The position numbers and the translations under genes were made by a program. The notes beneath the pieces are model-generated. The model saw nothing but the letters and a program-made list of their open reading frames with translations. It ran no database searches and was not told the DNA's origin. Source: Halobellus clavatus (GTDB lineage Archaea > Halobacteriota > Halobacteria > Halobacteriales > Haloferacaceae). From it: a DNA stretch of 64,000 nt. This document shows, in pieces, positions 6,057 to 23,375 of this stretch; the first letter of the stretch is position 1, and each line of letters begins with the position of its first letter. The stretch spans positions 496,001 to 560,000 of the forward strand of contig NZ_FNPB01000001.1 of the NCBI RefSeq assembly GCF_900107195.1. Direction: 5' to 3'.

Positions 6057-7022
6057 TCACCGAGAGATGCCGCCGGCGTCGTCATCGATCACGGCCGCGA
6101 CCTCTGCCGGCGTGACGACGGCCACGTCGCCCTCGACAGTGCGCTTCAGGGCGGCCGTCGCGGCCGCATACGCGAGCGCGTCGTCGACCGAGCCGGCGTC
6201 GGGGCCGAACCGCTTTGCGAGGTAGCCGCCGACGAACGCGTCGCCGGTGCCGATCGGGTCGTACGTGTCGGCCTCGTAGACCGATTGCTCGAACACCTCG
6301 CTGTCGTGGACGGCCACCGAGCCGGCCTCACCGCGCGTGAGGACGACCGTCTCGAAGTCGAAGTCCGAGAGCAGGCCGTTTGCCACCTCGACCGGGTCGC
6401 CCTCGCGCCCGAGACAGGCCGTCACGTCGCGCTCGGCAGCGAACAGCACGTCGACGTGGGGAAACAGCGATTCGTAGGCCTCGCCCGCCTCCTCGGGCGT
6501 CCACAACTTCGATCGGTAGTTCAGGTCGAACGCGGTCGTCACGCCGGCCTTCGTCGACGCGCCGAGTACCGCCGCTGTCGTTTCCGCGAGCGTCGGCGAG
6601 AGCGCCGGCGTGATCCCGCTCGTGTAGAAGACCGAGGCGTCTTCGAGCGCGCTCGTCGGCAGTTCGTCGGGCGTCGCGGTCGTCACCGACGCCCCGGTGC
6701 GATCGTAGATCACGTCACTCCCGCGGGGCTCCCCGCCGCGTTCGAGGTAGTAGGTCCCGAGCCGGGCCTCCGGCCGCCGGTCCCACGCGACTGCCACGTC
6801 GACGCCGTGGGCGCGGAGTTCGGAGGCGACGCGGCGGCCGAGCGGCGAATCCGGGAGTTTCGAGAGCCACGCGGTGTCACAGCCGAGCCGCGCGGCCGCC
6901 ACGGCGACGTTGCTCTCCGCACCGCCTGCGTGTGCGTCGAGCTCGCGCGCCCGTTCCAGGCGCTCACCCTGGGGTGGCGAGAGTCGCAGCATCGTCTCGC
7001 CGAACGTCACGATGTCGGACAT
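6057..7022 (-). CDS. kdgK: 2-keto-3-deoxygluconate kinase (PfkB family)
   Basis: A 321-residue PfkB/ribokinase-family sugar kinase. It shows the N-terminal GG motif ([16 protein letters not shown]) and the C-terminal signature with the catalytic aspartate in [18 protein letters not shown]. The overall pattern ([13 protein letters not shown] start, [10 protein letters not shown]) matches KDG kinases, which phosphorylate 2-keto-3-deoxygluconate to KDPG in the semi-phosphorylative Entner-Doudoroff pathway of haloarchaea. The ATG at 7022 was chosen over one nine codons upstream because it begins the conserved strand. Another PfkB substrate, such as fructose, is less likely but possible. Confidence 0.85.
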
Positions 7023-7085
7023 ACCCGGCCGTTCGCCCAGGGAGTACATAAGACCGGTTGTCGGGCCCGGCGCCGACCACCCCGC

Positions 7086-9422
7086 TCAGTCAGGCGTCTC
7101 GTCCGCCGCGCCCGCCGCCTCGAAGAGTTCCGGATACGCGACGCTGTCGGCGACGGGGGAGTCGCTCAGATCCGTGCCGAAGAGTTCGCCGACCGATCGG
7201 TCGGGAGCTGTGTAGTACTCGTCGAGCGGCCCGAACACGCTGCTGTTCTCGAGGCGGATTCCCTCGAACGTCACGACGGCGTCGATCGAGAGTGCGCCGT
7301 GTTCTTCGAGAGTCGAGACGCTCTCGAATCTGTCGAGCGTCGTGGAGAGCGGTGGGACCGCGTCGAGTTGCAACGCTGGATCGTCCAGCCGCTCGAAGGT
7401 CGCCTCCGAGATCGAGAGCGCGAGGGTGCTGGACGGCGTCACCGCAGTCTCGTGTGGCGTCCGATCCTGGATCGGTTCTTCGAGCCGATCGAGCATCGCG
7501 TGAGCGCCCTCGGCGACCGCGCGCTGGTCGAGGACGCCGGCATCGGTCACATCGCTCACGGTCTCGAGCTGTTCGAGCAGGTCCGGGTCGATCCAGTCGG
7601 GGTTCTCGAGTGGGAGCTGTCGGTACGGGCCGTCGGTCCCCGCGGTGAGTTTCTCCCGGAGCGCCTCGCGTCGCTCTTCGAGCTCTTGTCGCTGCGAGCG
7701 GCGGTGCTCGAGCGTCTCACGGACCTCGCGTCGGCGCTCGTCGAGTGCCTCCAGCGCGTCACGGAGTGCAGTTTCGGCGTCGCGCCGTTCGTCTGCGGCC
7801 TCGTCGTGGACCCGTCGCAACTGCACGTACTCGTCCCGGAGGGTCGCGAGTTCCGACCGCCGCGTGGCGGCCTGCTCGCGCTCGGATTCGAGGGTCCGAC
7901 GGCGACCCAGGCGGATCGGCAGGAGTTCGTCTGTGGTGCGGGCGAGCAGCGACTCGCGCTGTCGCAAGAGCGGGGCGAGCGTCCGGTCCCACCGGTCGAC
8001 CGGGTCGGCGTCCTCGCGGAGTGCATCGCCGACGTCGTCGGTGAGTTCGTGGGTCAGTCGATCGATGCGGTCCGGGAACGGGTGTTCCTCGAGCGCCGAT
8101 TCGAGTCGCGCGTGGACCTCTTGGGCCACGAGAAGGGTCGCGATCGCGTTCGGATCCGGATTCACATCGGCGTCGTGAGCCAGATCGGCGTGCGGAAACT
8201 CGCCGAACGCGTCGCGGACCTCGGCCACGGCGGAGTCGAACGTCAGCGATGCGTCGGGGCGCGAGAGCCCTTCGGCCCGGTCGCTGGCGACGTCGAGTGC
8301 TCGCCGGGGGACGAACAACTCGTCGACATCGCCGCTCGTGCCGCGGTTGCGCAGGCGATCCACCGCGCGGGAGGCCGCATCGAGCGATGCCGCCGCCGCG
8401 TCGTGGGCATCGATCTGTTCGTCGAGCGCGTCGATCTCCGCACGCGTGTCGACGTACGCTGAGATGGCTTCGAGCGGGACCTCGATGCCGTCAGCATCGA
8501 CCGAGAACAGCGTGGCCCCGACCGCCCCCTTGCGTGCGGGGCCGACGTCGAGGAGGTCCGGCTCCCGCGCCGACCTGACGATGAGCTCGGCCGCGCGCCG
8601 GTTCACCGCGGCCCGCGCGTCGGGATCGGCTCTCGCCTCCGGGGGCATCGGCAGGAGGCCGTACGCGTGGACGGGACTCTGTGTGAGAGTGAGGGTGGCC
8701 GTACCGAGCGAAGGGGTATCGGTATCCACGGGCAGGTCGATCGGGTAGTGATCGTCCGCAAAGCCGAGCAAAACGCGGAGTTCGCGGAGCGCGGTGTAGG
8801 TGTTGTACACGACCCGCTTGTCGGCTGACGGCACGAGGGCCTCACCGAATCCAGTGAGCAGATCGACCGACCCGAGCCCGAACAGCCAGGTGTCCGACGG
8901 CGCGTGTTCGTCGAGCAGCGCCAGGATGAGCGGAACGGCACCGGACCCGGTCCCACCGCCGAGTGAGCTCAGCACCCACACGTGATGGGGGGCCGGTCCG
9001 TCGGGGGCCTCCGGTCGATCGGTCTCGGGGTCGTCACGGTCGAACACGGCAGACAGCGCGGCGTAGACCGCGCCGAAGTTCGCGTCGCTGTCGAGGTAGT
9101 ACCGGCCGATCGCACGCTGACGAGCCGCTCCACCGTTCGCGGGGAGCCGGTCGGTGTCGGAGAGGTACCCGCGGGTGTCGATATCCATCTGGAACGTCCG
9201 ATTCGGCGGGTCCAGTCCGATGGTCTCGGCGCGGTCGGGTGCCAGAGCGTTGAGGTCCTCTGCTCGGGAGTCGATTGCGACGTACTCGAACGCTGGATCC
9301 GGATCGGTCCGGTCGACGGCCGCTGTGACAGCGTTCAGCATTCGACACCCCGCTTCGCCAATACCGAGGACGGTCACTGTCGCCGGACGCGGCGGCGACA
9401 GTGGGGCTCCACCGTTTGGCAT
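7086..9422 (-). CDS. large tubulin/FtsZ-like GTPase with coiled-coil extension
   Basis: A 778-residue protein. The N-terminal 300 residues carry a tubulin/FtsZ GTPase fold: GIGEAGC (20-26) for the first nucleotide loop, SSLGGGTGSG (152-161) as the tubulin signature, and YNTYTALREL (206-215) at the position where tubulins contact the base. FtsZ and CetZ are about 350-420 residues. Here a further 480 residues follow, including a long charged coiled coil (roughly 510-620, runs of E, R, L and A) and an extra C-terminal domain. This resembles the Tubulin_2-like group rather than FtsZ or CetZ. No membrane segment is seen. The function, perhaps a cytomotive or scaffolding polymer, is unknown. Confidence 0.8.
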   Translation of the reverse strand: MPNGGAPLSPPRPATVTVLGIGEAGCRMLNAVTAAVDRTDPDPAFEYVAIDSRAEDLNALAPDRAETIGLDPPNRTFQMDIDTRGYLSDTDRLPANGGAARQRAIGRYYLDSDANFGAVYAALSAVFDRDDPETDRPEAPDGPAPHHVWVLSSLGGGTGSGAVPLILALLDEHAPSDTWLFGLGSVDLLTGFGEALVPSADKRVVYNTYTALRELRVLLGFADDHYPIDLPVDTDTPSLGTATLTLTQSPVHAYGLLPMPPEARADPDARAAVNRRAAELIVRSAREPDLLDVGPARKGAVGATLFSVDADGIEVPLEAISAYVDTRAEIDALDEQIDAHDAAAASLDAASRAVDRLRNRGTSGDVDELFVPRRALDVASDRAEGLSRPDASLTFDSAVAEVRDAFGEFPHADLAHDADVNPDPNAIATLLVAQEVHARLESALEEHPFPDRIDRLTHELTDDVGDALREDADPVDRWDRTLAPLLRQRESLLARTTDELLPIRLGRRRTLESEREQAATRRSELATLRDEYVQLRRVHDEAADERRDAETALRDALEALDERRREVRETLEHRRSQRQELEERREALREKLTAGTDGPYRQLPLENPDWIDPDLLEQLETVSDVTDAGVLDQRAVAEGAHAMLDRLEEPIQDRTPHETAVTPSSTLALSISEATFERLDDPALQLDAVPPLSTTLDRFESVSTLEEHGALSIDAVVTFEGIRLENSSVFGPLDEYYTAPDRSVGELFGTDLSDSPVADSVAYPELFEAAGAADETPD

Positions 9423-10401: not shown

Positions 10402-11466
10402 TTATAGCTGATCGAGAATCCGATCGGCGGCACTCGCGGACGTGTCTACCTCGGTCCGACGCTCCTCCTCGTCGTTCCACGCCGTCTCGGGACGACTCTG
10501 GAGGATGTAGAACTGCTTCTCATCGCCCGTTTCCTCGATCGCCCACTCGATGTCCTGGGGCCGATCGTAGTGCTGTTCGATGGCCTTCGCGAGGTCGGTC
10601 AGTTTGATGATCTCGTCGGCGGTCAGCGAGGGAACGTCCCGTTTGTCGTCCTCGACGGAGACCTCCTCCGTCCCAGCGTCTGTCGGGACCGTCATGATGT
10701 CTTTCTTCTGGACGTTGCGATCGACGATCTTGTAGACTGGCTTGTCGACGAGGAAGCTATCCGGAGTGACCGAGCCGCTCACGACGGCCTCGCCGAGTCC
10801 CCAGTTGGACTCGATGCGGACCTTCGATCGGTCGCCGTTCGAGGGGTTCAGCGTGAACATCACGCCGGAGGTCCGCGCGTCGACCATCTTTTGGATGCCG
10901 ACGCTGATGAGCACCTCGTCGTGCTCGAAGTCGTGCTCCTCGCGGTACGTGATCGCCCGCGCGGTGAACAGACTGGCCATACACGCTTTCGTCCGCTGTT
11001 TCACCGACTCGAAGTCGCTGACGTTGAGATAGGTGTCCTGCTGGCCGGCGAAACTGGCGTCGGGCAGATCCTCAGCCGTCGCCGACGAGCGGACCGCGAC
11101 CTGTAAATCCGTCGTGCCGGCTTCAGATCGGAGTTGCTCCCAGGCGGATCGCAGTTCGGCCGAGAGGAATTCCGGGAACTCGGCGCGCTCGATGTGTTCG
11201 CGGATGTCTTCGCTGGCTGCGGCGACGTCGTTGTCGTCGTCGATGTCGACCGTCGAGAGTCGCTCTGTGATGTACTCGGTGAGCGACTGTGTTTCGAGAA
11301 ACGCCTCGTAGAAGTCGGTCGTGACGGCGAACCCCGGCGGGACCTCGACCTCCTCGCCGGCCTCCATCAGTTCGCCCAGGGAGGCGTTCTTGCCGCCCAC
11401 GAGGTCGACGCTATCTTTCGTGCAATCCGGCGACGCGAAGTGAAGTGTGTACGTTGGCTCGGTCAT
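10402..11466 (-). CDS. ATP-grasp (PPDK_N) subunit of a split dikinase-type phosphotransferase
   Basis: A 354-residue protein equal to the N-terminal nucleotide-binding domain of PEP synthase/PPDK. Visible landmarks are GGKNASLGELMEAG, VAVRSSATAEDLPDASFAGQ, TSGVMFTLNPSNGD and the closing FYILQSRPETAW. It has no phosphohistidine or PEP-binding TIM barrel. The partner with the phosphohistidine domain lies 35 bases upstream on the same strand. This split architecture is that of phenylphosphate synthase (ATP subunit plus large substrate/His subunit) and of a divided rifampin phosphotransferase. It should transfer the beta-phosphate of ATP to the partner's histidine, releasing AMP and phosphate. 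Confidence 0.85.
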   Translation of the reverse strand: MTEPTYTLHFASPDCTKDSVDLVGGKNASLGELMEAGEEVEVPPGFAVTTDFYEAFLETQSLTEYITERLSTVDIDDDNDVAAASEDIREHIERAEFPEFLSAELRSAWEQLRSEAGTTDLQVAVRSSATAEDLPDASFAGQQDTYLNVSDFESVKQRTKACMASLFTARAITYREEHDFEHDEVLISVGIQKMVDARTSGVMFTLNPSNGDRSKVRIESNWGLGEAVVSGSVTPDSFLVDKPVYKIVDRNVQKKDIMTVPTDAGTEEVSVEDDKRDVPSLTADEIIKLTDLAKAIEQHYDRPQDIEWAIEETGDEKQFYILQSRPETAWNDEEERRTEVDTSASAADRILDQL

Positions 11467-11501
11467 TGTATGGTCTCTATTGACAATGTGTTACTTAGCG
11501 A

Positions 11502-13403
11502 TTACTCCGCTCGTTCCAGAATCTCGACCTCGCCGGTTTCCCCGTCGAGGCGGACGATGTCGCCGGTCTCGATGATCGAGGTCGCGTGTCCGGTGCCGGT
11601 CACCGCCGGGAGACCGTACTCGCGGCACACGATCGCCGCGTGACTCGTGATTCCGCCGTCGTCCGTCACCGCGCCCTTCGCTCGCGGGAAGACCGGGGCC
11701 CACGCGGGGTTCGTCAGTGGGGCGACGAGGATCTCGCCCTCCTGCAGTTTGTCGATGTCGCTGGAATCCTTGACGATGCGGGCCGGGCCTTCGACCTGTC
11801 CGGATGAGGACCCGAACCCGTCGAGGTTCGTCTCGTCGCCGCTGTCGGACTCGATGTCCAGCCAGTTTTCGACCTTTTCGGTCGTGATGCCCCACAGCAT
11901 CTGCATCAGCGGGTCGGTGACTTCTTCGGGCGGTTCGCCCAGTGCGGGCGAGGGGTCCCACGCTTTGGCAGCCTCGAAGATCTGTCGGCGCTCCGCGGCG
12001 CGGTCCTGCCAGCGCTCGGAGACGAACGCGCCCTTCCCGAGCGCCCACGTCTCACACGCCTCTTCGAGCAACTCCGCCACCTCGAATCGGTTAAAGAGGA
12101 AGATGTCCTCCTCGTCGGCCAACAGCCCGTGGTTGACCAGCAGTTCGCCGAACTCTCGCATCTTGCGGAAGACGATGGTGTGCAGCCAGTTCTCGATCCA
12201 GAACTGGTGGTTCTCGGCGTACTCATAGACGGCCATACAGGTCTCGTAGGCCGCATCGAACTCCTCGCGCTCCTCGGGGCTCAGATACTGCCGGTACTCG
12301 TCGACCACCTCGTCGCGCTCGGCCTGCAGTGCCGCGAAGTCCCGGCCGAGTTCCTCGCCGGCTTGCAGCCGGTCGACCTTCGACTCGAGGTGATCGAACG
12401 GGGCCTGGAGGTCCTCGATCCACGAGCCCTTGTAACTGTGGAACCCGTCGCCGTACGTCATATAGAACCAGGGATCTTTGACCTCGTCGAACCGCTCCAT
12501 AAATTCGGTTCCCGCGTCGGTCGCTCGAAGCCGGGCGATCTTCTCGTCCGGCGATCCCTCGGACGTCAGCACGTCGGTGACGTCCGACCCGAGTTCCACG
12601 GCGAACTCGGCCAGTTCGTTCAGTTCCTGGTCGGGGCGGAAGACGTCGGCTTCCACGGCGGAGACCATCTTCCCGATCGCGTCGTCGGAGATGTCGGGGA
12701 ACAGCTCGCGGCTGAGCTCGGTGAACTGCATATACGCCAGGTAGGCGAGATACAGGAACTCGAAGTGACGTTGCCACCCTTCGAGGGCGAGTTCGGTCAG
12801 CCGGTTGTAGTTTCGGACCACCTCGAGCGTCGATTGGCTCTGGCCTTTGCCCTGCGTGATCACGTCGTCGGGGACGTACTCCGGAAGGGCCGACGGGACG
12901 TCGAGGTCGTCGATCTCGCGGCCGATCTCTTTGACCGCGGGCAGCCAGACGCCGTTGTACAGGGCGTCGTAGTTCTCGTAGTAGTACTCGCTCCGCTCTT
13001 TGAAGAGCTTCCCGCGCTCTTCGAGCAGTTCCTCGTCTTCGACGTTGATACCGGTGAAGTACGCGTACCCGGCGACGACGCGGATGTCGACGGACATCGA
13101 CGGCGGTATCGCGAAGACGCGGCTGGTGTTCTGCGCCATCGCGATCTGCCACGCCTGCGCGCTGATCGTCATATCCCACGGCAGCAGCGGCTCGGTCGTG
13201 TCTTTCTTGTCCCAGAACCAGAACCGATCTCGCTCGTACTCCGTTCGGTCGTCGGTGAGTTCGAACCGGAAGTACTCGGGGTACATCTCCTCCCAGCCGT
13301 CCAGTTCCGCGGGGAGGTCTAGTTCGCCCGCGTGGGGGAAGCGCGTCCGCGCTTCGTCTGTCGTGTGGCCCGTTGGTTTCTGCGCACTCTGGTCAGATCC
13401 CAT
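11502..13403 (-). CDS. substrate/phosphohistidine subunit, phenylphosphate synthase-like
   Basis: A 633-residue protein whose last 100 residues are the mobile PEP-utilizing phosphohistidine domain (GGITSHAAIVCREYGLPAV, with the active histidine near residue 588). The first 500 residues are helix-rich and aromatic-rich, with no PEP-synthase TIM barrel, as in the substrate domain of phenylphosphate synthase or rifampin phosphotransferase. It probably accepts phosphate from the downstream ATP-grasp subunit and passes it to a hydroxylated, perhaps phenolic, substrate. ATG at 13403 is chosen over a GTG at 13415; a TATA element about 25 bases upstream implies a nearly leaderless mRNA. The neighbouring Rieske oxygenase supports an aromatic substrate, but this is inference. 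Confidence 0.82.
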   Translation of the reverse strand: MGSDQSAQKPTGHTTDEARTRFPHAGELDLPAELDGWEEMYPEYFRFELTDDRTEYERDRFWFWDKKDTTEPLLPWDMTISAQAWQIAMAQNTSRVFAIPPSMSVDIRVVAGYAYFTGINVEDEELLEERGKLFKERSEYYYENYDALYNGVWLPAVKEIGREIDDLDVPSALPEYVPDDVITQGKGQSQSTLEVVRNYNRLTELALEGWQRHFEFLYLAYLAYMQFTELSRELFPDISDDAIGKMVSAVEADVFRPDQELNELAEFAVELGSDVTDVLTSEGSPDEKIARLRATDAGTEFMERFDEVKDPWFYMTYGDGFHSYKGSWIEDLQAPFDHLESKVDRLQAGEELGRDFAALQAERDEVVDEYRQYLSPEEREEFDAAYETCMAVYEYAENHQFWIENWLHTIVFRKMREFGELLVNHGLLADEEDIFLFNRFEVAELLEEACETWALGKGAFVSERWQDRAAERRQIFEAAKAWDPSPALGEPPEEVTDPLMQMLWGITTEKVENWLDIESDSGDETNLDGFGSSSGQVEGPARIVKDSSDIDKLQEGEILVAPLTNPAWAPVFPRAKGAVTDDGGITSHAAIVCREYGLPAVTGTGHATSIIETGDIVRLDGETGEVEILERAE

Positions 13404-13426
13404 GCGAATAGTCACCGCGACACAGC

Positions 13427-13470
13427 TATTTATAACTAACGAAGGTTAGAGTAGTATTGTAACCTAATAC
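13427..13470 (-). promoter_or_regulatory. promoter with overlapping inverted repeats for the split phosphotransferase operon
   Basis: A TATTTATAA element lies about 25 bases before the ATG at 13403. Immediately upstream are two dyads: CTAAC-GAAG-GTTAG (13436-13449) and GTATT-N7-AATAC (13454-13470). Their placement over the TATA/BRE zone suits a repressor or activator, perhaps the winged-helix regulator encoded at 19710. Confidence 0.45.
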
Positions 13471-13570
13471 CCGACTGAGAGAAACTATTGTATTCTATAT
13501 CTCGGATGATATGGATATAAATTCCGGATAAGGGAGTAGTTTGATTACACCGTAATTACAACGGGGTGCT

Positions 13571-14275
13571 ATGCGAGTCGGACTCATCAGCGACGTTCAC
13601 GCAAACCGTCCCGCCCTCGACGCCGTCCTCGAAGCGATGCCCGACGTCGACGCGCTCGTCCACGCGGGCGACGTCGTCGGCTACGGCCCGTTTCCCAGCG
13701 ACGTCATCGAACGTTTCCGAGACGAGGGGATCGTCTCGATCCAGGGGAATCACGACCGCGCGGTCCTCGGAACGTTTCACGACAACTTCCATCGGATCCC
13801 GAAGACGGCTGCCCAGTGGACGACAGAACGGCTGACCGACGACGAACTCGCGTATCTGGACGCGCTCCCGGTCGAGCGCGAACTGGCTGGTGGCCGTCTC
13901 AAGGTCGTCCACGGCGCTCCCGGAAACCCCAACACCTACACCTATCCCGAGGACTTCTCGGCGGACTTGCTCGGCGAGGAGTCGGTGTTGGCGGTCGGTC
14001 ACACGCATCTCCAGGCGAAAGCCAGCTTCGACGCGGGCACCGTCGTCAATCCCGGCAGCGTCGGTCTCCCGCGGGACGGCGACTGGCGGGCAGCCTACGC
14101 GGTGGTCGACCTCGATGCGGGGACCGTCGACCTGCGGCGGGTCGAGTACCCCCGCAAAGAGACCCAGGAAGCCCTCGCGGCGAACGACCTCCCGGAGGTC
14201 CTGATCGACGGCCTCGAACACGGCGAGTTGGTGTTCGGGCGGGCGAAACGGTCGGTGGACGATTCGGTCGAGTAG
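13571..14275 (+). CDS. calcineurin-like metallophosphoesterase (YfcE/MJ0936 type)
   Basis: A 234-residue protein with all motifs of the calcineurin-like phosphoesterase superfamily: ISDVHAN, HAGDVVGYGP, GNHDR, VVHGAPG and GHTH. These ligate a two-metal centre (usually Mn or Ni) for phosphomono- or diester hydrolysis. The gene runs opposite to the phosphotransferase operon from a shared AT-rich intergenic region. It might hydrolyse the phosphorylated product or be unrelated housekeeping; the sequence cannot decide. Confidence 0.85.
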   Translation: MRVGLISDVHANRPALDAVLEAMPDVDALVHAGDVVGYGPFPSDVIERFRDEGIVSIQGNHDRAVLGTFHDNFHRIPKTAAQWTTERLTDDELAYLDALPVERELAGGRLKVVHGAPGNPNTYTYPEDFSADLLGEESVLAVGHTHLQAKASFDAGTVVNPGSVGLPRDGDWRAAYAVVDLDAGTVDLRRVEYPRKETQEALAANDLPEVLIDGLEHGELVFGRAKRSVDDSVE

Positions 14276-14293
14276 GCGCTCCATCGCGTTACC

Positions 14294-14339
14294 GGTGCTG
14301 TGTTCCCGTCGTCGAGGGTGCTGTGTTCCCGCCGTCGAG
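14294..14339. repeat. two-copy 23-bp tandem repeat
   Basis: The unit starting GGTGCTGTGTTCCCG occurs at 14294-14316 and again at 14317-14339 with one mismatch (GTCGTC versus GCCGTC). It lies between the convergent phosphoesterase and aldehyde dehydrogenase genes, just after both stop codons. It could be a slippage duplication or part of a 3'-end structure. Confidence 0.8.
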
Positions 14340-14343
14340 CCGT

Positions 14344-15822
14344 CTAGAACGGGTAGTCCCGCGGCTGGTGCTGGATCGAGGTCCACTTCGTCTCGGTGAG
14401 TTCGTCGATGATCCACTCGCCGTTGTACCGGCCCATTCCGGAGGCTTTCATCCCGCCGAAGGGCACGTGCGGTTCGTTGTTGATCGGCTGGTCGTTGATG
14501 TGGACCATCCCGGCGTCGATCCGGTCGGCGACGTCGCGGGCCCGCTGGACTCGCCCGGCGTGGACCGACGCCGCGAGGCCGTACTCGGTGTCGTTGGCGA
14601 GTTCGACCGCCTCGTCGTCGCTCCCGAACGGCACCACCGGTGCGACCGGGCCGAAGTGCTCGTTGCAGGCGGCGGCCATCTCGTTCGACATCCCCGAGAG
14701 CACCGTCGGTTCGACGAAGAGGCCGTCGGCGTCGCCGCCGAGTTCGAGCGTCGCGCCCGCTTCGAGGGACTGCTCGACGTACGACAGCATCGAGTCCCGC
14801 TCTGCCGCGTTGATGATCGGGCCGACGACGGTCTCCGCATCGAGCGGATCGCCGACGGGCAGTTCCGCGGCGCGATCGGTGAGCCGGGAGACGTACTCGT
14901 CGTAGATCGACTCGTGGACGAGGTGGCGGTTGATCGAGATGCAGATCTGTCCCTGATGCATAAACGAGCCGAAGATCCCCGCGTCGACCGCCCGGTCGAC
15001 GTCCGCGTCGTCGAGGACGACGTGGGGGTTGTTGCCGCCGAGTTCCATCGCGGGGAACGCGAGCGCCTCGGCCGCGTTGCGAGCGACGCGCTGTCCCACC
15101 GACGTCGACCCGGTGAACGCCACCGCCGAGAGTTCGGGATGGGAGGCGACCCGATCGCCGATCTCCGATCCGTGGCCCGTCACGACGTTCAGGACGCCGT
15201 CGGGGAGTCCCGCCTCCTCGAACAGTTTGGCGATGAGGAGGCCGCCGGTGATCGGCGTCTCCGTGGCGGGCTTGAGCACGACGCTGTTTCCGAGAGCGAT
15301 GGCGGGAGCGACCGCCCGAAGCGACAGCTGAAACGGGAAGTTCCACGGCGAGATCACGCCGACGACTCCGACGGGCTCCCGTTTGACGATGTTCTCCTTC
15401 CCGGCCACCTTCGATTGGCTGTGGCTGCCCGTCATCCGGAACGGATACGTGGCGACGTCGTGCATCATCTCGCCGGTCGAGGTGAACTCCCGCGACGCCT
15501 TCGGGCGGGCGCTCCCCGACTCGATCGCCAACAGTTCCGTCAGCGCCGCGTGGTGTTCTTCGATGCGGTGCTGGACCGCCCGGATGATCTCGCCGCGCTC
15601 CTGGGGCAGCACCTCCTGCCACGTCTCCTGGGCACGGGCGGCCGCCTCGTAGGCCGCGTCGACGTCCTCGGTGGTGCCGGCCGGCACCTCGGCGACGACG
15701 TCCCGGGTCGCCGGGTTCTCGACGGGGATCGATTCTCGGCCCCCCGACCGCCACTCGCCGTCGATGTACACGCTGTTCCAGTCTGCCGTGATCGAAAAAT
15801 CGCTCGGATGGGTCTGTGTCAT
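14344..15822 (-). CDS. NAD(P)-dependent aldehyde dehydrogenase
   Basis: A 492-residue ALDH-superfamily enzyme of standard length. It shows the cofactor-binding SPWNFPFQLSLRAVAPA region, FTGSTSVGQRVA, the catalytic glutamate in MELGGNNPHVVL, and the nucleophilic cysteine in HQGQICISINRHLVH. It resembles aryl-aldehyde (benzaldehyde/vanillin-type) dehydrogenases and would oxidise an aldehyde to an acid. Its neighbours, an alcohol dehydrogenase and a ring-hydroxylating oxygenase, suggest a step in aromatic side-chain degradation. The exact substrate is inferred only. Confidence 0.88.
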   Translation of the reverse strand: MTQTHPSDFSITADWNSVYIDGEWRSGGRESIPVENPATRDVVAEVPAGTTEDVDAAYEAAARAQETWQEVLPQERGEIIRAVQHRIEEHHAALTELLAIESGSARPKASREFTSTGEMMHDVATYPFRMTGSHSQSKVAGKENIVKREPVGVVGVISPWNFPFQLSLRAVAPAIALGNSVVLKPATETPITGGLLIAKLFEEAGLPDGVLNVVTGHGSEIGDRVASHPELSAVAFTGSTSVGQRVARNAAEALAFPAMELGGNNPHVVLDDADVDRAVDAGIFGSFMHQGQICISINRHLVHESIYDEYVSRLTDRAAELPVGDPLDAETVVGPIINAAERDSMLSYVEQSLEAGATLELGGDADGLFVEPTVLSGMSNEMAAACNEHFGPVAPVVPFGSDDEAVELANDTEYGLAASVHAGRVQRARDVADRIDAGMVHINDQPINNEPHVPFGGMKASGMGRYNGEWIIDELTETKWTSIQHQPRDYPF

Positions 15823-15886
15823 ACTCTCAGTCTCGTTCGGTGGTTGCTCGGTCGATGCCTCCGGAATCGAATCCCGTCACGGACGG

Positions 15887-16363
15887 TCAGTGCGCGTGCC
15901 CTCCGGGGCCGTGTGGGGTTTCGAGGAACTCCGAGAAGATGCTCGTGTCCTGAGCGGCCAGCGCTGCGAGGCCCTCCGCGTCGACCCGAATACTGAACTG
16001 CTTCTTCGGCGCCTCGACGATGAGGCGGTCCCCGGCGGGTGACTCGATGCTCCGGACGACGATGTCGGCGTACTCGTTGCTGAGCGTGAACTCGCAGTCG
16101 ACGTCGTCGTCGGCGTCGGACTCCGACCGCTCGGCGAGCGCGTAGTCCCGTCCGAGGAATTCGGAGAACACGTCCAGATCCTGCCAGGAGAGGCTCTCCA
16201 GCCCCAGCGCGTCGGCGCGGAGGACGTCGTCGTCGGTCCGGAGTTCCAGCCGTTCGCCCTTCGGGGTCCGGATCCGTCTGACGGTGACTGCCGCGTCCTC
16301 GCTTCGGACCTCGGTTTCCTCGTCGATCTCGATGTAGTGGGCTGACTCCGTCGGGTCGGTCAT
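15887..16363 (-). CDS. internally duplicated protein encoded with the ring-hydroxylating oxygenase
   Basis: A 158-residue acidic protein that I do not recognise. It consists of two similar halves. The first contains VTVRRIRTPKGERLELR, then ALGLESLSWQDLDVFSEFL. The second contains IVVRSIESPAGDRLIVEA, then AEGLAALAAQDTSIFSEFL. The ATG overlaps the stop of the oxygenase beta-subunit gene in an ATGA, which predicts translational coupling and a functional link. The C-terminus ends HGPGGHAH, which might bind metal. It has no ferredoxin or reductase motif, so it is not the usual electron-transfer partner. A third oxygenase subunit or assembly factor is a guess. Confidence 0.75.
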   Translation of the reverse strand: MTDPTESAHYIEIDEETEVRSEDAAVTVRRIRTPKGERLELRTDDDVLRADALGLESLSWQDLDVFSEFLGRDYALAERSESDADDDVDCEFTLSNEYADIVVRSIESPAGDRLIVEAPKKQFSIRVDAEGLAALAAQDTSIFSEFLETPHGPGGHAH

Positions 16364-16893
16364 AGGAAGATGGAGATGTTGTCGGTGTCGAGGACGGTCT
16401 GGTCTAACCGGATCTCCCGGTCGGCGATCTCGAACGACTCGTCGGTCTGTCGGAGCGTGTCGATGCGTCGTGCCGAGTAGAACGTGTGTGCCTCGCTGTC
16501 TCCACGGCTCAGGTACACGAGGAGGTTGCTCTCGACGTGCAGTTCCCCGTCGTCGAGGGAGTCGTCGTCCTCGCTGACGCTGACGTTCGTCACGTGCCGG
16601 CGCGTCCGCGTCGGCGGCCGCTCCGCCCACGCGTACTCCGAGTCGAACCGCTCGACTCGGGCCTTCAGCGACCCGTAGTCCTCGTTGAAGTAGTACCCCT
16701 GTTCACTGAACGCGCTGGCCTGGTTCTCCCGCATCAGCCGGCGGGGCATCCGGTAACTGATGTCGTCGGCGATGTGGTCGAACCACTCGTGGAGTTCCCG
16801 GTTGTCAAGCAGTTCGGCTTCGTAATAGAGGAACTGTTCGACCGACCGTTCGACGAGCAGCGACTCGATGTCCGCCTGGTGGTCAGTCAACAT
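16360..16893 (-). CDS. ring-hydroxylating oxygenase beta subunit
   Basis: A 177-residue protein matching the small (NTF2-like) subunit of Rieske non-haem iron oxygenases. It has an N-terminal helix with VEQFLYYEAELLDNRELHEW, an RMPRRLMRENQASAF segment, SEYAWAERPPTRTRRHVTNV and a beta-sheet with NLLVYLSRGDSEAHTFYSARR. It stabilises the alpha3-beta3 hexamer. Its ATG at 16893 overlaps the alpha-subunit stop by one base (TGATG), and its own stop overlaps the next start. Confidence 0.88.
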   Translation of the reverse strand: MLTDHQADIESLLVERSVEQFLYYEAELLDNRELHEWFDHIADDISYRMPRRLMRENQASAFSEQGYYFNEDYGSLKARVERFDSEYAWAERPPTRTRRHVTNVSVSEDDDSLDDGELHVESNLLVYLSRGDSEAHTFYSARRIDTLRQTDESFEIADREIRLDQTVLDTDNISIFL

Positions 16894-18290
16894 CAGCGGT
16901 CCTCCGTGACGTTGATGGGCGAACCGGTCGCGTCGGTTCGGTCGTTGCCGGCGAGCATCTCGTACCACTGTTCGTGGAACAGGCGCATCCCGCCCTCTTC
17001 GAGGTTCTCCGTGTACGCGAAGCCCGGCCCGAGCCACTCGTCGTCGATGTCCATCTCGCTCATCCACTCGAGGCCCATCTGGTAGTTCAGTTGGAGGTTC
17101 TGACTCTGAGCGAACTGGCCGTCGGCGGCCTCGGTGATGCTCTTCCAGATCGGGACGTCGTCCTGCTCGAAGTTCCCGGTCGGCCCGAAGTTCGAGGTGT
17201 ACATCTTGTACATCCGCTGTTTGAACGCCTCGGGCGCGTTCTTCGGGGCCAGCCCCCAACTCCACAGTTCCATCTGGTCGGGACCGATCGGCCGCCACTT
17301 CCTGATCGTGAAGAAGGGCGCGACGTCCTTCTCGGGGTCGTCGGTGGTGTCGCCGAAGTGAAGGAACCCGAAGTTCGGGAAGATCGCACCCGTGAACGAC
17401 AGCGCCTGTTTGGCCAGTTCCCACTGCCCCTCCGAGAGGTCGTCTTTGGTGAAGAGGTCCTCGACAATCTCGTCGGGATACGTGAGGAACACGTCTTCGC
17501 CCTCGAAGCCGCGCATACTCGTCGTGTGTCCGTCACAGTGGATGTGCCGATCGAGGCTCTCGCCGGTCCCGGCGTGCCCGACCGTCTCCTCACCGCCGAG
17601 TTCCAGATCGACGACCGAGCCGTGGGCCCAGGCAGTGTGGTAACTGTCGCCGTTGAAGTTGTCGGCGATGGTTTTCCAGTTCGCGTCGACGACCCACCGG
17701 TGGGGTTCGCCGATGACCTCCATCCCGCCCTCGGGGAGTTTCATGTGCACGTCGAAGTACCACTTGAAGTCCCCGAGCCACTCGTCGAGGGACGGACCCT
17801 CCTCGGCCAACGAGGCGAACACGAGGCCCTCGTAGGTCTCGAGGCGGGGGACGTGCGCGAGTCCGTACTCCTCTCGGTCGAGATCTTTGAACGCTTTCGA
17901 CTTCTGTGGGATGCCCGCCGCCTCGCCGTTGTTCTTGTACGTCCAGCCGTGGTACGGACAGCGGAAGTGGGAGGTGTTCCCCTGCTCTGCCCGACAGACT
18001 TCGGTGCCGCGGTGGCGACAGCTGTCGAACAGGAGGTTGATCTCGCCGCTCTCGTCGCGGACGAAGATGAACGTGTCGTCGCCAATGTAGCGCTGAGCGT
18101 AATCGCCCGGCTCTGGGATCTCGGACTCGTGCCCGATGAAGACCCACGACTGGGCGAAGATCCGCTCCATCTCGAGGTCGTGAAGCCCCTCGTCGTGGAA
18201 GAACTCGAGCGGAAATAGCCCTTCGTCGAGTGACTCACGGGCCGCCTGCAGCGTCTGTGCTGTCGAATTGGGGATGTCACCTGCTGCCAT
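16893..18290 (-). CDS. ring-hydroxylating oxygenase alpha subunit (Rieske/non-haem iron)
   Basis: A 465-residue catalytic subunit. The Rieske [2Fe-2S] site is CRHRGTEVC followed about 16 residues later by CPYHGW. The mononuclear iron site is recognisable as ADNFNGDSYHTAWAH. The family inserts both atoms of O2 into an aromatic ring to form a cis-dihydrodiol, or acts as a monooxygenase. The substrate could be benzoate-, phthalate- or salicylate-like. No reductase, ferredoxin or diol dehydrogenase is adjacent; a Rieske ferredoxin-like protein is encoded at 31420. It leads a three-gene coupled operon from an AT-rich promoter. Confidence 0.92.
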   Translation of the reverse strand: MAAGDIPNSTAQTLQAARESLDEGLFPLEFFHDEGLHDLEMERIFAQSWVFIGHESEIPEPGDYAQRYIGDDTFIFVRDESGEINLLFDSCRHRGTEVCRAEQGNTSHFRCPYHGWTYKNNGEAAGIPQKSKAFKDLDREEYGLAHVPRLETYEGLVFASLAEEGPSLDEWLGDFKWYFDVHMKLPEGGMEVIGEPHRWVVDANWKTIADNFNGDSYHTAWAHGSVVDLELGGEETVGHAGTGESLDRHIHCDGHTTSMRGFEGEDVFLTYPDEIVEDLFTKDDLSEGQWELAKQALSFTGAIFPNFGFLHFGDTTDDPEKDVAPFFTIRKWRPIGPDQMELWSWGLAPKNAPEAFKQRMYKMYTSNFGPTGNFEQDDVPIWKSITEAADGQFAQSQNLQLNYQMGLEWMSEMDIDDEWLGPGFAYTENLEEGGMRLFHEQWYEMLAGNDRTDATGSPINVTEDR

Positions 18291-20325: not shown

Positions 20326-22704
20326 TCAGTGCCCGGGGTAATCCCGCTCGAAGCGGTCTTCGATCTCTGCGGCGTCGATCCGTATCACCACTGGACGGCC
20401 GTGCGGACAGGCGTAGGGGTTCTCACAGTCGTCCAGCGCGTCGAGGAGTTCGATCACCGACCCTTCGGTGAGGGAGGTGTTGCCCGTCACCGAGGGGTAG
20501 CACGCCAAGTCTGCGAGCAGGTCCGCGACGACGGCCTCGACGGTTTCGGCCCCGTCGGTCCCCTCACTGACGAACGCCGTGAGCGCGTCGCGGAGGAGTT
20601 CCGGATCGAGTGTCGCCGCGAACACCGCCGGGACGGCCGCGACCTCGACCGTCCGGTCGTCGGTCCGCTCGGCCCGGAACCCCAGTTCGGCCAGCGCGTC
20701 GCGGTAGTCGTCGAAGGACGCGGCCTCCCGAGCGGTGAGTTCGAGCGTGACCGGGTCGGCGAGCGCCTGGCTCGCGACCTCGCCGGAGAACGCGGCCTGG
20801 AGTCGCTCGTAGTGCACCCGCTCGTCGGCCGCGTGCTGATCGATCAGCACCATCCCGTCGTCGGCCTCGGCGACGACGTAGGTGTCGTGCAACTGCCCGA
20901 GGACGCGCATCGACGGGAGCGAGTCGAACGCCGGTTCGAGCGTCGCCGCGTCACCGCCCAGGTCGTGTTGGACGGTCGGCCCGACGAACCCCGTCGGGCG
21001 TGACTCCCGGTCGGCCGTGCGGTCGGAACCGGACTCTGCCGAGGCTGAAGTGTCGGACCCCGCCGGGGGGGTAGTGTCGGCGTCCGGTCGGGTGGTCGGC
21101 TCCCCGTCTCGCGGGGTATCTGCGAATCCCGAAGCGTCGTCTTCGCTCTCCGAGACGGACCACGCGGCCTCGTCGGCGGGATCGACCGGGTGGGCCCGCG
21201 ACTCGTCCGCGTCAGCGTCGGTGCCACTGGCGTCGACGTCGAACGCAGGATCGGGGTCGGTGTCGGTGGGAGCGGATTCGGCAGTGGGGCCAGCGGCTTC
21301 GTCGTCGGGGTCCGCCGCCGAGGCCGGGGCGTCCGCAGCGTTCGCCTCGTCGGTGTCGTCGGCGGCCGTTTCTGCAGCAGCGTCGCGGGCCCCGAACGCG
21401 TCGGCGGGAGCGTCACTCCCGACGTCGGTATCGGTCGCGGGACGCTCGGCCGATCCGTCAGCCGAGTCGGACTCCGGTTGGGGGCTGTGTCCTGCGCCGC
21501 CGCGGACCGCCGACTCCGGCGACTCGGGGGCGATTTCGGTCTCTTCGGGTGCCGAGCGACCACGGGGCGCGGTCGAACGGATCAACCCCGCTTCGAGGAG
21601 CGCATCACGGACGGCGGCGGTGACTGACTCGCGCACGCCAGACTCGTCGTCGAACCGGACTTCCATCTTCCGCGGGTGAACGTTCACGTCGACGGCGTCC
21701 GGCGACAGATCGACGAAGAGCACCGCGAAGGGATAGCGGTCGGCCGCCAACTGGCCGCCATACGCCTCCAGGACGGCCTCTCGGAGGACGCCGGCGGTGA
21801 CGTACCGATCGTTGACGAACGTCGAGAGGTACTCACGGGTGCTGCGGGTCGTCTCGGGGTGACTGACCAGTCCCGTGACGCGCTCGAGCGGCCCCGAGTC
21901 GGGTTCGTGTGCGACCTCGATCATCGACTCGGCGACCTCGCGGCCGTACACCGACAAGACCGCCGACCGGAGGTCGCCGCGGCCCTCGGTCGCGAAGAGT
22001 TCCCGGTCGTCGTGTTCTATCGAGATGGCGACGTCGGGGTTCGCCAGCGCGTAGTGGGTGACGACAGTGTTGACGTGGTCGAACTCCGTAGCGGTCGTCT
22101 TCAGGAACTTCCGACGGGCGGGAGTGTTATAAAAGAGGTCCGTCACCTCGACGACGGTTCCCTCCGGGCAGCCGGCGGGGGCGACCTCGGTCACCTCGCC
22201 GCCCTCGACGCGGAGTTCCGTCCCCGCGTCGCCGCCGCGGGGCTTCGTTCGGATCGTCAGCCGCGAGACCGCGCCGATGGTGTGCAGCGCTTCGCCGCGG
22301 AATCCCAGCGTGCCGACACCGGCCTCGAGGTCCTCGATGTCGTCGATCTTGCTCGTGGTGTGCTCTTCGACCGCGCGTTCGACGCTCGCTCTGCGCATAC
22401 CGACGCCGTCGTCGCGGACGCGGATGCCCTCCGTCCCGCCGGCGTCGACCGCGACGGAGATCCGGGAGGCGTCGGCGTCGAGGCTGTTTTCGAGGAGTTC
22501 CTTGACGACCGATGCCGGCCGTTCGACGACCTCGCCGGCCGCGATCTGTCGCACCGTTCGATCGTCGAGTTCGCGGATCGTCGGCGTCCGCGGTTCGTCG
22601 GTGTCGGCGTCGGTATCGACGTCGGTACCGGAGTCTTGGTCGCTTGCGTCGTCCGTCGCGCCCGCGTCGGTAGCGGCCTCGGTATCGCTCGGGTCGTCAC
22701 TCAT
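20326..22704 (-). CDS. mutL: DNA mismatch repair protein MutL
   Basis: A 792-residue MutL. The N-terminal GHKL ATPase has IAAGEVVERPASVVKELLEN, VRDDGVGM and TLGFRGEAL. A long acidic, disordered linker (roughly 380-570, runs of D, A, S, E and T) joins the C-terminal dimerisation/endonuclease domain. That domain has DQHAADERVHYE (from about 622), ACYPS, CPHGRP (from about 766) and FERDY. These are the metal-site motifs of nicking-type MutL. A 40-residue acidic extension precedes the conserved start. The ATG overlaps the NUDIX gene stop (ATGA), so the genes are coupled. Confidence 0.95.
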   Translation of the reverse strand: MSDDPSDTEAATDAGATDDASDQDSGTDVDTDADTDEPRTPTIRELDDRTVRQIAAGEVVERPASVVKELLENSLDADASRISVAVDAGGTEGIRVRDDGVGMRRASVERAVEEHTTSKIDDIEDLEAGVGTLGFRGEALHTIGAVSRLTIRTKPRGGDAGTELRVEGGEVTEVAPAGCPEGTVVEVTDLFYNTPARRKFLKTTATEFDHVNTVVTHYALANPDVAISIEHDDRELFATEGRGDLRSAVLSVYGREVAESMIEVAHEPDSGPLERVTGLVSHPETTRSTREYLSTFVNDRYVTAGVLREAVLEAYGGQLAADRYPFAVLFVDLSPDAVDVNVHPRKMEVRFDDESGVRESVTAAVRDALLEAGLIRSTAPRGRSAPEETEIAPESPESAVRGGAGHSPQPESDSADGSAERPATDTDVGSDAPADAFGARDAAAETAADDTDEANAADAPASAADPDDEAAGPTAESAPTDTDPDPAFDVDASGTDADADESRAHPVDPADEAAWSVSESEDDASGFADTPRDGEPTTRPDADTTPPAGSDTSASAESGSDRTADRESRPTGFVGPTVQHDLGGDAATLEPAFDSLPSMRVLGQLHDTYVVAEADDGMVLIDQHAADERVHYERLQAAFSGEVASQALADPVTLELTAREAASFDDYRDALAELGFRAERTDDRTVEVAAVPAVFAATLDPELLRDALTAFVSEGTDGAETVEAVVADLLADLACYPSVTGNTSLTEGSVIELLDALDDCENPYACPHGRPVVIRIDAAEIEDRFERDYPGH

Positions 22705-23126
22705 TCCTCGTGGACCTCCGTCGCGATGGAGACGGCCTCCTGCTGGACGTCGCTCAGTCGGTCTTTCGCCGTCTCGGGGAGCAGCCACGCGTGGTCGGTG
22801 TGCTCGTCGCTGAGCGTGACCGGGTCGTCGACGTCGACATCGAGGCTGGCGGGGACCACGCACCGGTAGTAGACCGCAAACCGCCCGCGGTCGGTGTCGT
22901 TCCGCCACGACGCCGCGTGGATCGGGCGGTCCACGTGGACGTCGAGTCCCGTCTCCTCGACGATCTCGCGGTGGACGCCCGCGGGGGCGTCTTCGTACGG
23001 TTCGAGGCGGCCGCCGGGGAGTTCCCAGCCGCCGTCGGTGCTGCGGCGGACTATCAGGATGGTTTCGGTCTCGGCGAACAGGACGCCGCGCTGACTGATC
23101 GTCGCCTCCAGGTGGGCCTCGGTCAC
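22701..23126 (-). CDS. NUDIX hydrolase
   Basis: A 141-residue protein with a complete NUDIX box, beginning GGRLEPYEDAPAGVHREIVE and continuing ETGLD, for Mg-dependent hydrolysis of a nucleoside diphosphate-linked compound. It is coupled by an ATGA overlap to mutL. That suggests a genome-maintenance role such as nucleotide-pool cleaning (MutT-like), but substrate specificity is not encoded in the visible motifs. Confidence 0.88.
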   Translation of the reverse strand: MTEAHLEATISQRGVLFAETETILIVRRSTDGGWELPGGRLEPYEDAPAGVHREIVEETGLDVHVDRPIHAASWRNDTDRGRFAVYYRCVVPASLDVDVDDPVTLSDEHTDHAWLLPETAKDRLSDVQQEAVSIATEVHEE

Positions 23127-23375
23127 GTCCGATCACCGACGCTCCGATCCGCTCGCGCCGTTCCTGTCGGCACCGTCGGCCGAGTCCCGGCGCGATCGCT
23201 CGTCGAACACATTTGCTACTCGAACACTGTTCGCAGACGCCCTAATCCTTACCGGTCGTCTACACGCGTGTGACGCGTCCGAACCGTGTGTGTCGTGAAC
23301 GAGGCTGTGGCTCCGCACCGAGAGTCACGGGTGACGCATCGTCGTGCCAGGGGCGGGTCGTCATCGGCGGCGGCG

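Follow-up and report, generated by a model that had tools for sequence, protein, structure and literature searches.

A Tubulin_2 (FtsZl1) paralogue with a predicted coiled-coil arm at the mutL-kdgK locus of Halobellus clavatus

The locus and the family of its tubulin-like gene

The stretch of DNA analysed here, referred to as the window, consists of 64,000 nucleotides from Halobellus clavatus. At positions 7086-9422 of the minus strand it contains a single unbroken open reading frame of 778 codons with an ATG start. The encoded protein of 778 residues matches the Pfam family Tubulin_2 (PF13809) over residues 18-217 with 39.8 bits (cut-off 27, E 4.3e-10); its score against the ordinary Tubulin family (PF00091), 26.9 bits, is under the cut-off of 33. 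Orthologues in the same reading frame, 39-40% identical over the full length, are found in two further genomes of the genus. From these orthologues and the PF13809 score it is clear that the frame is more than a chance ORF.

The same genome encodes four ordinary PF00091 members above the cut-off in open frames of 394-425 residues, assigned from their motifs as two FtsZ (400 and 401 residues) and two CetZ (394 and 425). The window protein is about twice as long as these, as the first-pass annotation of the locus had stated. A second long FtsZl1 protein, of 824 residues counted from its ATG, is encoded elsewhere in the genome on contig C12.

FtsZl1 was defined in 2010 by Makarova and Koonin (PMC2875224), who took a haloarchaeal protein of 1051 residues as their starting point; the parts of that paper available to us describe an N-terminal FtsZ-like domain, an extended coiled coil and a mostly helical C-terminal domain. 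According to the same parts, T6-H7 could not be identified, the C-terminal domain had no similarity to FtsZ, and filament formation was left open. They also describe a second family, FtsZl2, which is found in Proteobacteria, has no coiled coil and carries an alpha/beta C-terminal region. In a 2023 study, as far as its accessible text goes, Tubulin_2 proteins were used as a divergent outgroup (PMC9871819).

In a tree of 31 N-terminal domains, the window protein falls within the 27 FtsZl1 rows, and a 100/100 branch separates these from the outgroup, although the tree has long branches and an outgroup of just four rows, two from CetZ and two from FtsZ. The closest relatives are the orthologues from Halobellus rarus (L079) and from genome G292 (support 97/90). 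Against the FtsZ profile TIGR00065 the protein scores 12.6 bits, where the cut-off is 295.2. Together with the Pfam scores this bears out the earlier proposal of a tubulin-fold protein with a GGGTGSG signature outside FtsZ and CetZ: in a phylogeny with both, as the first-pass annotation had advised, the protein separates from them, and no profile places it firmly in either. The score and the tree also rule out that the protein is simply FtsZ or CetZ carrying a minor insertion. A long helix predicted at residues 505-594 agrees with the coiled coil noted before; in the AF2 model it is followed by a C-terminal domain at 599-746, and the relatives align over the full length. This coiled coil in the model and the haloarchaeal host exclude FtsZl2.

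The window protein is therefore an FtsZl1 (Tubulin_2) paralogue, a member of a family known since 2010 and not of a new class. The latter idea is ruled out by a PF13809 score above the cut-off. Where the first-pass annotation saw a tubulin homologue of an unassigned kind with a novel C-terminal domain, such a coiled coil and C-terminal region belong to the usual build of this family, as described in the available parts of PMC2875224, and in our models the C-terminal region resembles the tubulin C-terminal domain. Like the family described there, the protein combines an FtsZ-like N-domain with GGGTGSG, a coiled coil and a C-terminal domain, and it co-exists with ordinary FtsZ.

Starting 63 nucleotides past the stop codon of the ftsZl1-type gene, and on the same strand, is a kdgK-like gene for a pfkB sugar kinase (6057-7049, likely ATG at 7022), a neighbour that is kept in both orthologous loci. 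The mutL gene (20326-23136, minus strand) lies directly upstream of the ftsZl1-type gene in both orthologous genomes and about 11 kb away from it here. The ten neighbours scanned include the sugar kinase, a DUF6663 protein, a HAD protein, a PPDK-like protein, a Rieske dioxygenase and mutL, in accordance with the metabolic surroundings reported earlier. The vWA proteins, kinases, GTPases and membrane proteins that typically neighbour FtsZl1, and that are common in the family without being needed for membership, were not found among these ten genes, apart from the sugar kinase, and in this the window copy differs from the family as presented in the available parts of PMC2875224.

Of the 17 genomes of the genus, 13 have mutL next to kdgK, with 88-544 nucleotides between the matches, and one (G048) has them on separate contigs. 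In the two orthologous genomes (G292 and G293) the window-type gene occupies a gap of about 2.5-2.6 kb between them. In the window the two are about 11 kb apart, with other genes added, including aromatic-ring dioxygenase genes. Since the pair is adjacent in 13 genomes, and the gene lies between the two in the other three that have both on one contig, the simplest view of the metabolic neighbourhood is that it marks an insertion site. A function read from the metabolic neighbours was set aside for this reason. Relative to the rest of the genus, about 8 kb of this interval between the ftsZl1-type gene and mutL (10402-18290) is an insertion, which encodes a PPDK_N protein, a separate PEP-utilizer protein, an aldehyde dehydrogenase and a Rieske-type ring-hydroxylating dioxygenase.

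Nucleotide site and predicted fold

In tubulin-like proteins, T3 contacts the gamma-phosphate, the guanine is contacted by asparagines of T6 and H7, and the T7/H8 segment carries a catalytic acid that acts for the next subunit. All window coordinates in this section are on the minus strand. The T1 loop GIGEAGC (residues 20-26, 9345-9365) has G20, G22 and G25 in 27 of 27 FtsZl1 rows, and in the T4 signature GGGTGSG (residues 155-161, 8940-8960) G156-G159 are invariant in the 27 rows. N207 is conserved in all of them. The T3 loop GAARQRAIGRY (residues 98-108, 9099-9131), identified from aligned columns, stands opposite the T3 of CetZ in hhalign; its R103 is an arginine in every row, and R101 in 26 of the 27, the remaining one having a lysine.

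S6-T6-H7 (residues 253-286, 8565-8666) was located from the alignment rows and the secondary structure of the model, and T6/H7 is recognisable in both. In the H7 column of N274, 19 of the 27 rows have an asparagine, seven an aspartate and one a glutamate, and the window copy keeps the asparagine. T6 reads FNEE in the partnered paralogue, MPPE in the window protein and MDQA and TDQA in the other two orthologues. The window T6 is altered, and judging from the sequence GTP binding may be weaker.

The distance from the H7 asparagine to S7 is 24-33 residues in all 22 short and mid-length FtsZl1 forms, and 36, 36, 41 and 39 residues in the FtsZ and CetZ proteins of the same genome. In five long FtsZl1 forms it is 35-49 residues, although the alignment is less certain there. 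In the window protein the probable S7 is a strand at residues 304-314 (8481-8513), 31 residues from N274, in a model without an H8. No confident H8 is seen in either model: in the window model pLDDT is below 50 at 294-301 and 311-326, and in the model of a relative from Halorientalis persicus (L083, 26% identity) a single short helix at 315-319 lies within a low-confidence stretch. The catalytic T7/H8 segment thus appears to be missing in this set of short and mid-length forms. The T7 pattern NxDxxD is found in none of the 27 FtsZl1 rows and in both FtsZ of the genome; this is weak evidence taken alone, because the pattern also misses both CetZ. The GTP site identified in the first-pass annotation thus stands as not degenerate at T1 and T4, but not throughout, since the T6 asparagine is replaced and T7/H8 seems to be absent from the same set of short and mid-length forms.

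The window protein (pLDDT 81.0, pTM 0.68) and the L083 relative (pLDDT 81.8, pTM 0.68) were each modelled with AF2 from a 14-row alignment of the same 14 sequences. With VIA-align, the window model matches CetZ1 (4b46) best, with Z 26.0, rmsd 4.0 and 307 of 330 residues, model residues 14-746 being aligned to chain residues 1-367. It also aligns with CetZ2 (4b45, Z 25.7) and the Mycobacterium tuberculosis FtsZ (6y1v, Z 22.8, 274 of 304 residues, model 13-722). The L083 model gives Z 23.4 with CetZ 3zid (rmsd 3.8, 310 of 360, model 10-794) and Z 22.0 with FtsZ 6y1v (282 of 304, model 11-764). Only the VIA-align alignments span the insert; those of Foldseek, with about 320 columns, do not. The VIA-align candidates were Foldseek's own list, and families absent from that list may still match. 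Given as alignment ranges rather than residue-by-residue correspondences, the comparison shows that FtsZ ends at model residues 722 and 764; from this and the number of matched residues, most of the tubulin C-terminal domain would be present and end past the coiled coil.

The models suggest that a whole tubulin fold is interrupted by a long coiled-coil arm of about 280 residues. The arm (residues 317-594, 7641-8474), delimited from the model and the structural alignment ranges, contains the 90-residue helix 505-594 and is probably an insert after S7, and residues 599-746 (7185-7628) probably complete the tubulin C-terminal domain. The latter reading rests on the models because profile comparison finds nothing: with hhalign the N-domain matches CetZ (probability 97, E 1e-10) and FtsZ (85, E 6.3e-6), while the C-domain shows no similarity to either (probabilities 0.3 and 0.2). 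Sequence searches of solved structures listed no FtsZl1 member among the matches; the single sequence gave one coiled-coil match (E 0.099), and the family profile mainly N-domains of CetZ, FtsZ and tubulin as well as some coiled coils. Compared with the 2010 view in the available parts of PMC2875224, both T6-H7 and a tubulin C-terminal domain are suggested by the models here, with the arm as an insert.

CetZ, represented by CetZ1 and CetZ2, is accordingly the best match of the window protein, both in structure and for the N-domain profile. However, CetZ proteins have about 390 residues, possess T7/H8, lack a coiled-coil arm and are split from the FtsZl1 rows with 100/100 support. FtsZ likewise shares the tubulin fold and the T1 and T4 loops (Z about 22), but has the NxDxxD motif that the window protein lacks, and its profile TIGR00065 falls far below the cut-off.

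A membrane protein encoded with FtsZl1 genes

Clustering of the neighbours at 22 FtsZl1 loci revealed one protein common to 19 of them, and a profile search added a further locus (L073). Judged by the hydropathy of six members, it has a hydrophobic segment at the N-terminus, and a second such segment separates an ectodomain from a cytosolic tail. From this the partner is predicted to be a small single-pass membrane protein with a signal peptide, an outer domain, one transmembrane segment and a cytosolic tail. In Pfam, no family scored above its cut-off for the five partners scanned. The partner may correspond to families A1/A2 of the 2010 paper, as they appear in its accessible text (PMC2875224).

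In the profile search the partner gene lies within 2 kb of the FtsZl1 gene at 22 of 22 loci that are not of the window type (a count that includes the near-duplicates L081/L082 and L070/L071) and at none of the three window-type loci. At L084 the partner gene is split. Neither beside the window gene nor anywhere else in the 64-kb window is a partner gene present. The co-occurrence is strict in 292 haloarchaeal genomes, where an FtsZl1 type is found in 18 and the partner in the same 18, with one partner match each. Here E-value thresholds of 1e-10 for the FtsZl1 profile and 1e-6 for the partner profile were used; both profiles were built from such FtsZl1-partner loci, and scoring covered the top 3 or 8 candidates in each genome, so that weak extra copies may be missed. 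The carriers span 12 of 77 genera in several families. Within the same limits of scoring, six of the 18 genomes have a single partner gene accompanied by two or three FtsZl1 genes.

The long FtsZl1 forms, with open frames of more than 1000 residues (L106-L112), constitute a distinct branch. At the seven such loci covered, the partner was found at none, and they have no match to the short-form profile, being too diverged.

Several individual loci deserve mention. In Haloferax marinum (L085, 1-11156) three FtsZl1 genes surround one partner gene. At L077 (6445-9312, minus strand) a broken FtsZl1 gene with split frames stands beside an intact partner gene, which suggests a recent loss. A vWA protein is encoded near FtsZl1 together with FHA-kinases at L098 (1286-6076), and together with an Hsp70 with GrpE at L080 (11728-15522); both loci agree in part with the gene context given for the family in 2010. 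At several loci a gene divergent from FtsZl1 encodes a protein with an HExxH motif (HEYVHTRQ-type, read by eye) and, at its C-terminus, double zinc ribbons (L081 6400-7830, L084 6394-7833, L085 3226-4866, L088 6197-7849, all minus strand). It might act as a protease within the module.

Proposed role of the window protein and its alternatives

The window type occurs in three of the 17 genomes of the genus (G000, G292 and G293, the last being Halobellus rarus), and each of these additionally encodes a partnered FtsZl1 at another locus, although three out of three within one genus is not independent evidence.

We tentatively suggest that the window protein is an accessory FtsZl1 subunit that serves a membrane-linked module, as a GTP switch or scaffold assembling through its arm. 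It would bind GTP and act as a switch or scaffold, assembling via the coiled-coil arm, rather than form a treadmilling filament. The two T3 arginines could sense the gamma-phosphate in the same subunit, or help to hydrolyse it. The FtsZl1 relatives would act with the single-pass membrane protein, and the module would connect the cell surface with a GTP-dependent scaffold in the cytosol. A membrane-tethered switch or scaffold is favoured because of the surface-exposed membrane partner and the apparent loss of T7/H8. In this view the window protein, which evolves fast, would be accessory to the one such module of the genome, on contig C12, and might form a heteromer with the FtsZl1 encoded there. 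The role of an extra subunit is favoured because several haloarchaeal modules hold two or three FtsZl1 per partner. Against it, the partner is not encoded beside the window gene, the altered T6 may weaken GTP binding, and the rate of evolution described below also fits a protein that is losing importance.

The family has one experimental precedent for a membrane or motility role. According to the part of the report available to us, Synechocystis is impaired in phototaxis when its Tubulin_2 gene sll0445 is disrupted, and the Sll0445 protein associates with the pilus proteins Slr2015 and Slr2018 (PMC9880817). Apart from Sll0445, no other wet-lab results on the FtsZl1/Tubulin_2 family were found in the literature. 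From the description in that paper Sll0445 has the same Pfam domain as the window protein; it differs in being cyanobacterial and in being encoded with FtsA-like and DivIC-like genes.

The main rival is that the window gene is a decaying or dispensable FtsZl1 duplicate, whose product, though still able to fold, is without its partner and on the way to being lost. In the comparison of G292 with G293, the window type (63% identity) has an omega (Nei-Gojobori) of 0.56, and its arm one of 0.66, but the value is 0.10 for the partnered FtsZl1 (94% identity); for the same pair of genomes it is 0.18 for the partner and about 0.32 for mutL and kdgK, some of the ORF starts being over-long. The altered T6 and the presence in only 3 of 17 genomes fit decay as well. 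However, in neutral simulations (three settings, 150 runs each) omega was 1.1 with minima of 0.86-0.89, and at least two stops arose in every run, while the window type has no internal stops in three species. T1, T3, T4, N207 and the H7 asparagine are also intact in all three orthologues. Since omega is below that of the neutral simulation and the frames are free of stops, yet omega is above that of the partnered paralogue, the window gene is maintained but loosely constrained and not a pseudogene. We consider its drift towards loss possible, if doubtful.

A conventional cytoskeletal tubulin, which polymerises and treadmills like FtsZ or CetZ and serves in shape or division, would agree with the full fold in the models and the intact T1 and T4. 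It is nevertheless unlikely, as T7/H8 appears to be missing (24-33 against 36-41 residues between the H7 asparagine and S7), the genome already has two FtsZ and two CetZ, and only 18 of 292 haloarchaea carry FtsZl1.

The patchy distribution, with 18 of 292 genomes in 12 of 77 genera and several families, and the fast evolution of the window type could also indicate a mobile conflict or anti-phage module. This is very unlikely: the PADLOC matches are weak and of the coiled-coil kind, the best one of the window protein having E 0.017, none of 374 pattern matches in viral contigs encodes a relative, and no known defence gene is among the neighbours scanned. A viral origin was set aside as well, as these matches in viral contigs include no relative and a Foldseek search of the L083 model against viral models returned ordinary viral tubulins as the best matches. 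Least probable of all is a stand-alone role in DNA repair or sugar metabolism tied to mutL or kdgK, apart from any membrane module, as the two same-strand neighbours are kept at three orthologous loci but adjoin each other without the gene in 13 of 17 genomes, so that the pair does not need it, and the partnered FtsZl1 is located elsewhere.

Returning to the accessory subunit of a membrane-linked module, it can be speculated more broadly, and with considerable doubt, that FtsZl1 proteins are membrane-linked coiled-coil switches, with a split fold, T7/H8 gone, T3 arginines acting in cis, an obligate membrane partner and heteromers of the window type. In a literature search whose scope stopped short of supplements and most subscription journals, we found no earlier report of the split fold, the missing T7/H8 or the strict partner.

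Within the tubulin superfamily, FtsZl1 is a branch that has received hardly any study since 2010. To the question raised then, whether its elements had diverged, been lost or been replaced, we propose that T6/H7 diverged, that the C-terminal domain is split by the arm and that T7/H8 was lost. The strict pairing of FtsZl1 with the membrane protein identifies a specific partner and offers haloarchaeal genetics a compact system of two genes; both Haloarcula japonica and Haloferax marinum carry the pair. If the broader proposal were true, FtsZl1 would be a tubulin-based system closer to dynamin or an SMC head than to a filament.
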